Below, piece after piece: positions 7,501 through 10,500 of a stretch of 64,000 bases of DNA. The number at the start of each line of letters is the position of its first letter. The stretch's first letter is position 1. The notes under the pieces were generated by a model. The model made no database searches. It was not told the origin of the DNA and saw only the letters and a program-made list of their open reading frames with translations. Both the position numbers and the translations under genes were made by a program. This stretch comes from Dromaius novaehollandiae (taxonomy: Eukaryota; Chordata; Aves; Casuariiformes; Dromaiidae). The stretch lies in the NCBI RefSeq assembly GCF_036370855.1, contig NC_088130.1, positions 14,103,543 to 14,167,542 on the forward strand. Direction: 5' to 3'.

Positions 7501-10500
7501 GAAACAGAATCTCCCCGCAAGATAGGTCCGTGCTAAATGTAATGCAAAAAGACTTTGAAACAGCACGGCAGAGATATACCCCCCCCAAGACCTCAAAATG
7601 TTATTGATGTGGGCACGCTCGAACTGTCCCGAGGTGAATTCTAGCATGATTTATAGCCTCGGTACGTGGGACTCAATCGGAGTTAAGCTCTGGGACGTGG
7701 CAACAAGAAATGATAAGATGGCGGCAGGACTTATAGCCCCGTGGCGAACCGTGCTTGACACCCTGAAAGAGCATAGCAAGAAGAAAACACAGGGACCGGA
7801 GGCACCTGCAGCCCCCACAGCACCTCTGTCAAGCGACACGGTGGTGGGGGCGGTGGGTGGACGGGACTCCCCAGGAAACGACCCAGACAATCCATTTGAC
7901 CCAGGGCCGATCGATCCGGAACAGGAGCCGGACCTCTATCCACCTCTTAATGCGCCTTGCTGTGTCCATCTTACGGCCCCTTCGGAACCACCCCCCCCCC
8001 CTCAAGAGACGGGGCCGCCCGCGAGTGCGGACTGCCCACAACCCCCCAACACTGACCCGGCCTTCTGGGAAGGATCCATCGCCCCAGGGCCGCTCGGCGG
8101 GGCGTGACTACACTGGCCGGGGACACCCCTCTGCCTGCCTTCTTCCCTCCCTCCTTTCCTCCCTGCCTTCCTTCCCCTCCCGCCCGGCCCTTCCTCTCTC
8201 CACCGCGGAGCAGCAGGAGGAGGAACATGGTGAAAGCGGAGCAGGCCTCAGCCTGGAACGGCAGCACGAGCTCAGATTCAAAGGGCCTTTCACAGATGGT
8301 GTCACCGCAAACCTGAAGCTCGGCAATCCTGCAGACGGGAATGTGTGCTTCAAAGTTAAGACCACGGCACCATGTAGATACTGTGCAAGACCTAACAGTG
8401 CAATTATCGATGCAGGAACATCAATTAATGTTTCTGTGATGCTACAGCCTTTGGACTATGATCCTAATGAGAAAAGTAAACACAAGTTTATGGTAAAAAA
8501 AAAAAAAAAAGAAAAAAAAAGCAAGAGTCTATGCTTGCTCCAGCTGATACTTCAGATATGGAAGCAGTATGGAAAGAAGCAAAGCCCCTCATGCATTCAA
8601 AACTTAGGTGTGCGTTTGAGCTACCAACGGAAAATGATACGCCTTATGACATAGAAATGAAAGTGTATCTACAACTGCAACAAAGACAGATTCTTCTGTA
8701 ATGTCTAAATCAATAAGTCCCTCTTTGGAGGCACCCAGCTCGAGCTGTAATTACTGCACGCGTGTCATTAAAATTTAATTATTTAATTTGCTTTGATTTG
8801 GCTCTGAACTTTTCTGCGGGAACCTAGGGTCGGGCCCTGTTATGGTGGCCGACAAGCCTAATTTCCATAACAGTTTGGCGACCCAGGTGGGACCCTAGGC
8901 GACCACTGTCGGGGCCTCTCGTCTCCAAACGATCATCTGGCGCCATCGGGTGAGTTCACCTGGGATCTTTGGCAACGAGAGGCACCGAGAAGGTGAGTCT
9001 TAAATTCCCGCCGAAATTCTAAATTCTGGTCTGGTAACAGTGCACTGTAAGGGGTACACGGGCTGGCCACCATAAGGCGTACCAGGGGATGGGTGTGAGT
9101 CCCATCCCCAGGGTCTGAGTGGGCTTTAAGTCCCAGCCCTGCCCGGCCGGAAAGGGGAGTGCGCAGCCTGATCAGCATAAGGCGCACTGCAAGACTGTAA
9201 GACAGAAGTCTAGAGTCACTGTGACTGGTGTGAGTGTGAGCAGTAGTGTGTGTGTGTGTGTGTGTGTGTGTAGCCTGGGAACCGACCGGGGCGCCCGTCG
9301 GCTGAGGAAGCCGCCCGCTGCGAAGGGACAGCAGTCCTAGCAGTTAAAGACTCGGGGGGTGTGAGTGCGGTTCCCAGAGAGTGAGAGTGAGAGAGTGTGT
9401 GATTTAAAAAAAAAACAAAAAAAAGCTGGTCCAACTATGTCAGGAGGATTGCCCATTCCTGACAAAGGAGGAAAACCCAGCGGAACCCAGCAAGGGACTT
9501 TTGATCAGCAGGCTAAATTGTCCCATGATTTCTTTTTTTCCACCAAAATGCAAAAGCGCTACAAAAAACTTATCACAAGAGACCAGGCCCAAAACATTAT
9601 TCGAAGTTGCCCTGATTGCCAAAATGCATCCCCGTTACCACCCTACTCAGGGACCAACCCTCGAGGCCTGCAACCCTGCAATGTCTGGCAGACAGACGTT
9701 ACCCATTATCCCTCATTCGGAAGACTGAAATATGTCCATGTCTCTGTAGATACCCTTTCCCATTACGCTGTCACTACTGCCTATGCTGGGGGAAAAAAAG
9801 GCCGTGATGTATGTCGTCACTGGCTTGCCTGTTTCGCCACAATGGGGGTTCCCACTCAAATTAAAACTGACAGTGGTCCCGCATACACTGCACAGCGAAC
9901 GCGGGCATTTCTCCAAACCTGGGGGGTCGCTCATGTGACCGGAATTCCCCATTCCCCAACTGGCCAGGCAATAGTGGAACGTACCCATCGTACTCTAAAA
10001 AACACGCTTGAAAAACAAAAAAGGGGGAATAGCCCCGGTGCCTCCCCACAAGAGCAGCTGTGGAAAGCCTTATATGTTCTCAACCTCTTAAACCGTTATA
10101 CGGACCAAAGTGCAGTTAATAAGCATTTCTCATGCCCTACGTGGCGAGAACAGCCTCGGGTTCACTACAAGAACCTGGAAACGGGTCAATGGAGTGAACC
10201 AGTAGACTTAATAACGTGGGGGAAAGGTTATGCTTGTGTCTCCACAGGTAACGGGCCTCGTTGGATGCCTGCACGGCTGATTCGACCTGTTGAGGCATCC
10301 CTCGGAACACCAAACGAGGACTGAGAGCCAGTTACGATGAGCCCATGTCGGGGCATTTTCTGGCAATATCTGCCTGCCTCGTGCAGGGTCAATATCGATT
10401 CATAAAAGCTTACTGCTACTACGCGACCTTACTAATAAGTTGTAGATAGAATCAGAGTGGAACCCTTTTGAGGGATAGGACTGGACGTTAGGTTTGGGGT

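Follow-up and report, generated by a model that had tools for sequence, protein, structure and literature searches.

Two forms of a VAPB-carrying endogenous retrovirus family in the emu, one with the leader of a second retrovirus

Results

The window analysed here, a stretch of 64,000 nucleotides (nt) of the emu genome (Dromaius novaehollandiae, NC_088130.1, positions 14,103,543 to 14,167,542), contains an endogenous retrovirus (ERV) that carries a spliced fragment of the host gene VAPB and, directly behind it, the leader of a second retrovirus, hereafter ERV2 (Table 1). The element occupies positions 7004-10939, measures 3.9 kb including its long terminal repeats (LTRs) and is flanked on each side by the hexamer CCTGCT. 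As had been claimed in a preliminary description of this DNA, VAPB thus lies within one LTR pair and a single target duplication. Class II ERVs make 6-bp target duplications, and the duplication found here agrees with membership in that class (ERVK/betaretrovirus-like). The primer-binding site (PBS) next to the 5′ LTR is putatively of the Lys-tRNA type. Integrase was the sole viral domain that Pfam detected in the tested frames of the element; the frame at 7598-8107, inferred to be gag from its position and Pro-rich make-up, gave no Pfam match. The two LTRs differ at 9 of 252 aligned bases and by one 8-nt gap. Bird substitution rates lie at 1-2 per 10^9 sites and years, which would place the insertion roughly 9-18 million years ago, a rough figure only.

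The assignment of the captured sequence to VAPB, likewise proposed earlier, was confirmed by a piece of 74 amino acids (aa; 8274-8495) that matches the MSP domain (PF00635, E 5.8e-22) and, among PDB chains, scores better with VAPB (best E 1.5e-39) than with VAPA (best 4.8e-36); a further VAPB piece (8531-8701) found no match in Pfam. The VAPB start codon lies at 8227, and the sequence before it (8108-8226) is likely the 5′ untranslated region (UTR). In the window copy (L001), the alignment with emu VAPB is divided among residues 8-84, 91-137 and 138-162, each in a frame of its own, and the reading frame of this copy is therefore broken. The fragment had been delimited as 8108-8724; VAPB is indeed present there, yet the VAPB-derived part stops at about 8716, where R of ERV2 starts, and VAPB-like letters reach about 8729 because VAPB and the start of R resemble each other.

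A genome search with 8108-8724 yielded 40 copies of 84-100% identity, the window included, from 40 of 164 candidate places that were scored. All copy counts are lower bounds. A second search with the VAPB C-terminus, a part absent from the window copy, returned 14 matches, namely host exons 5 and 6 on contig C16 and 12 others, five of which were already among the 40 copies. Instead of the single integrated virus described before, we thus find a family, with 40 copies read and seven further likely places. Half of the copies read (20/40) reside on one contig, C33 (71.8 of 1468 Mb), which may be the W chromosome; the bird W chromosome has been described as an ERV refugium (PMC8310711).

The family falls into two forms. 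Five of the copies read (L008, L020, L023, L037 and L039), here called Form A, contain VAPB up to about codon 215, followed by RNase H and integrase of the ERV backbone. In the other 35 of the 40 copies, including that in the window, VAPB is followed from about codon 160 by R, U5, PBS and leader of ERV2 (Form B). The placement of VAPB between gag and a retroviral leader, noted previously, is thus seen in the window, but the leader belongs to a second retrovirus. In Form A its place is taken by RNase H and the 3′ part of VAPB, so that the origin of Form B requires a second recombination event. The seven further places are likely Form A copies; the two forms were counted with different queries, and 35 to 12 is no census. 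The name RNase H is taken from the matching cassowary protein P0122, which contains domains of RNase H and integrase; the RNase H part is akin to this protein, which is named POK6. Form A proceeds from the gag-like part through VAPB directly to the end of RNase H, and viral genes have thus been lost. Two Form A copies retain long frames across the junction: L037 has a single frame of 326 aa that connects the VAPB coiled coil via RNase H with integrase, and L039 one of 259 aa from VAPB into RNase H.

Both forms lack the VAPB introns wherever exon joins could be compared. On contig C16, the matches to host exons 5 and 6, the two exons covered (at 16056055 and 16058238), are separated by 2.09 kb, and all five Form A copies read straight through their join. 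The exon 4/5 join (at about codon 132, a position inferred from isoforms P0010 and P0013) is crossed in the 40 aligned copies without an insertion of intron size, albeit with small indels nearby. The intronless nature of the fragment was thereby upheld at two exon joins, and the capture of a spliced host mRNA is supported at the level of sequence. That the capture preceded integration, as suggested earlier, is borne out by 38 of 40 copies that align through the gag-VAPB join (L032 has a deletion across it and L040 lacks it) and by seven copies (L001, L002, L003 and L005-L008) that sit at different sites, their 5′ flanks having no similarity to each other. Two of these, L005 and L007, which occupy different sites, show 99.97% identity across 3208 nt with the LTR counted in; at least these two copies therefore go back to recent retrotransposition. 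L013 and L014, as well as L016 and L017, are near-identical or identical pairs that may have arisen by duplication or by insertion. In being multi-copy, mobile and devoid of a complete viral gene set, the element resembles VL30-like non-autonomous elements.

At the VAPB-RNase H join, four of the five Form A copies share ISASAAAVRAFTL, and the fifth, L039, has ISASAAPVRAFTL. Bird VAPB has ISASAAAV or ISASAAAAK at this site and the cassowary retroviral protein P0122 has KLAAAVRAFTL, so that both parents share AAA or AAAV there at the protein level. This fits a template switch at a short match.

The second join, between VAPB and R, is identical in all 35 Form B copies extracted, as is that between ERV2 and integrase in 30 of 30. 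Similarity to the ERV2 LTR begins at R, with U3 missing. A separate ERV2-type LTR piece in the window carries the same R-U5 (114 of 123 bases) behind a TATA-like box, and the VAPB-R join corresponds to a position 30 nt downstream of the box, close to the expected start of transcription. When the first 13 bases of R were compared with a 662-nt VAPB stretch of the Form A copy L023, no site matched as well as that of the join, which scored 11/13 against 8 for the runner-up. This score was reached by 3 of 1000 mononucleotide shuffles; with 16 bases the figure is also 3 of 1000. Such a join is expected if strand transfer took place at the 5′ end of a second retroviral RNA, and reverse transcriptase probably ran off that end onto VAPB.

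Substitutions among the copies gave no sign of coding constraint. Across 82 MSP codons, singletons fell on the three codon positions 20/24/18 times and shared variants 18/13/20 times, without codon-position bias in either class, and VAPB therefore looks like a passenger. Frame shifts or stops interrupt VAPB in many copies; one, L034, has an open MSP frame starting from the VAPB ATG. Besides, all 40 copies have an A-rich insert of varying length inside the MSP domain (8495-8523 in the window).

The element may extend beyond the emu. The best database match to the VAPB-RNase H join was P0121 of the cassowary (Casuarius casuarius), a partial entry named VAPB protein in which VAPB and RNase H are joined as in Form A and a lysine-rich insert sits where the copies have theirs. 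The Form B reading that includes the insert likewise matched this entry best, and the other entries among the best 120 of 718 matches look like native VAPB or POK6, judged by name and domains rather than by single alignments. P0121 is probably not the host gene, and in the cassowary automatic annotation seems to have mistaken such an element for it.

Table 1. Parts of the window element and of the ERV2-type LTR piece used as reference (positions in the window)
Feature	Position	Strand	Basis or remark
5′ target-site duplication CCTGCT	6998..7003	.	sequence comparison
5′ LTR, class-II-type ERV backbone	7004..7263	+	against 3′ LTR: 243 identities, 9 mismatches, 8 gap positions
Primer-binding site, putative Lys-tRNA type	7266..7283	+	read by eye
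Gag-like open frame, 169 aa, ending near the VAPB join	7598..8107	+	open reading frame list
Probable VAPB 5′ UTR, start of capture not sharply bounded	8108..8226	+	aligned among copies
VAPB codons 1 to ~160, spliced, frame broken, A-rich insert at ~8495-8523	8227..8716	+	Pfam, PDB, alignments
R-U5 of ERV2, without U3	8717..8872	+	8717-8839 identical to LTR piece 4135-4257 at 114/123; U5 end by eye
Probable ERV2 primer-binding site	8876..8893	+	read by eye; aligned in 35 copies
ERV2 leader and first codons of a frame (ATG 9437), probable gag start	8894..9503	+	assignment inferred
ERV backbone integrase, join at about ATCAGCAGGC	9504..10321	+	PF02022, PF00665, PF00552; same join in 30 extracted copies
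Short remnant (env-like tail, by eye) and polypurine tract	10322..10687	+	read by eye
3′ LTR	10688..10939	+	LTR comparison
3′ target-site duplication CCTGCT	10940..10945	.	sequence comparison
Part of separate ERV2-type LTR, approximate bounds; TATA-like box 4105, presumed R start 4135	4040..4258	+	reference for R start, outside the element

The ERV2-type LTR piece is directly followed by a long CCT/CCC-rich repeat (4242-5054). Elsewhere in the window there are a reverse transcriptase domain (11207-11644, plus strand), probably of CR1, a mir-1426 precursor (49434-49522, minus strand, 95 bits) and a MAM domain (52563-53054, minus strand), probably an exon of a host gene.

Discussion

Both architectures with their shared joins, the two intronless exon joins, the several integration sites, the recent spread of at least one pair and the flat codon-position pattern are observed features of this family. 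We consider it probable that they go back to capture of VAPB by a defective ERV, giving Form A, and a subsequent recombination with a second retrovirus, giving Form B, which spread in trans with VAPB as a passenger. In this course of events, a defective class-II-type ERV would have acquired spliced VAPB mRNA when reverse transcriptase switched templates, resulting in an element with a gag-like part, VAPB from the 5′ UTR to about codon 215, and RNase H-integrase. Its RNA may then have been co-packaged with that of the second retrovirus. Minus-strand synthesis would have left the backbone in the integrase region, resumed where gag of the second virus starts and passed through leader, PBS, U5 and R until it reached the 5′ end of the second RNA, from where a transfer resembling that of strong-stop DNA onto the VAPB stretch similar to the start of R could have produced Form B. 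Both forms might have been mobilised in trans by helpers and spread. Co-packaging, the direction of synthesis, the order of the steps, the use of helpers and any packaging benefit of the second leader are what we infer from the observed joins. The Form A copies contradict an alternative in which backbone, ERV2, VAPB mRNA and backbone came together in a single round of reverse transcription, and we rejected it.

Several observations weigh against this account or blur its details. With only the first 10 bases of R, 59 of 1000 shuffles reached the match at the VAPB-R join, which is then not striking, and the start of R was itself taken from the point where the sequences part at the join and from the TATA-like box rather than from transcripts. 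Where VAPB begins on its 5′ side and where ERV2 ends on its 3′ side can be given only approximately. The tree of the VAPB part is star-like, with 20 of 33 inner branches open and bootstrap support not settled; on it, Form A is not one clade, the form label needs three changes, and the VAPB 5′ part of the Form A copies L008 and L020 nests with the Form B copies L005-L007. This scatter suggests that Form A and Form B copies recombine with each other, and the order from A to B rests on the list of parts and on the separate position of L037 and L039 under a midpoint root. Recombination also enters the dating, since L005 and L006 are 99.83% identical over 3019 nt and only 96.6% over a further 146 nt of LTR. 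The A-rich insert is not explained by the account either; it may stem from slippage or from a switch to the poly(A) tail of a VAPB transcript that was polyadenylated too early. Finally, the MSP residues of L011, insert apart, are close to emu VAPB, which speaks against a pure passenger early on: together with the open frames of L034 and L039, they leave room for constraint on VAPB before the spread.

These last features are also what could be cited for a use of the captured VAPB as a protein, be it the MSP domain with its lysine-rich insert or a VAPB-RNase H-integrase fusion, that drove the spread, for instance by tethering viral proteins to the endoplasmic reticulum or its contact sites. Open frames do exist, from the VAPB ATG through MSP in L034, from VAPB into RNase H in L039 and from the coiled coil through RNase H into integrase in L037, and the MSP residues of some copies are close to those of emu VAPB. 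However, the absence of codon-position bias in singleton and shared variants, the frame shifts or stops in many copies and an insert that interrupts the MSP domain in 40 of 40 copies make such a use very unlikely. The preliminary classification of the element as an acute-transforming type applies to its architecture alone, given the broken frame in the window and the missing constraint among copies; moreover, VAPB is not known as an oncogene.

We regard it as equally far-fetched that a long interspersed nuclear element (LINE), such as CR1, made a VAPB retrocopy that landed in a provirus and spread with it. The two missing VAPB introns would be accounted for, and a reverse transcriptase domain that is probably CR1 is present in the window (11207-11644), but in all five of the Form A copies read, VAPB ends within coding sequence and is joined directly to RNase H without 3′ poly(A), and the A-rich tract sits inside the MSP domain instead. 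Capture of a read-through or spliced fusion transcript, after insertion of the second retrovirus in or near the VAPB gene, would correspond to the textbook route of oncogene capture (PMC4997597). Yet we deem this improbable as well: Form A has VAPB without any part of ERV2, and LTR similarity starting at R leaves no U3. Splicing of VAPB into ERV2 offers no explanation and was ruled out, since the isoforms suggest that the join falls within exon 5 rather than at an exon end.

Individual aspects of the element have precedents. Host-gene capture by germ-line ERVs is known from CrocERV29 (KIT-ligand) and CrocERV31 (nectin3), which likewise carry host mRNA in multi-copy germ-line ERVs; intact open reading frames and purifying selection are reported there (PMC4299795), whereas the copies studied here exhibit no constraint among themselves and include the leader of a second retrovirus. 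Three-parent recombinants, too, have been described: Kirsten and Harvey sarcoma viruses combine murine leukaemia virus as the retrovirus, rat VL30 as the second, endogenous retroelement and ras as the host gene (PMC5216832). Those viruses are oncogenic and were isolated after passage of murine leukaemia virus in rats, while in the emu the gene is VAPB and the element a germ-line family. Mouse VL30 is multi-copy and without coding capacity, and its RNA is packaged by murine leukaemia virus particles; the parts of the source drawn on here mention no captured host gene (PMC4859993), and RNA of the emu element may be packaged in a similar way. Patch-repair recombinants with host RNA arise at microhomology (PMC4997597) and thus resemble the element in switching templates at short matches; in the emu, by contrast, the donor part seems to stop at the very 5′ terminus of the second retroviral RNA, and the product was inherited. 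We found no description of such a VAPB-carrying element in the literature on ERV gene capture, birds and cassowary or emu (titles and beginnings of abstracts, among the matches listed). What is new here is that both forms are preserved together and that the second join lies at a presumed retroviral RNA end.

On a more speculative note, the foreign leader, gained by run-off and mis-landing on VAPB, could have provided a second packaging or dimerisation signal, allowed carriage by the particles of two retroviruses and thereby made Form B the commoner, recently active form. We put this forward as a tentative idea, more doubtful than not; if true, the family would represent a selfish three-parent element for which a host gene fragment served as the landing pad of its own improvement. 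Oncogene-carrying retroviruses were found via tumours and say little about how host RNA is captured where it offers no advantage of that kind. In this family, a capture that confers no visible coding benefit has been kept in dozens of germ-line copies, with both forms side by side, so that the positions of the template switches can be read from the two forms and, given a rooted tree, their order as well. The element thus constitutes a germ-line record of how retroviruses acquire foreign pieces.
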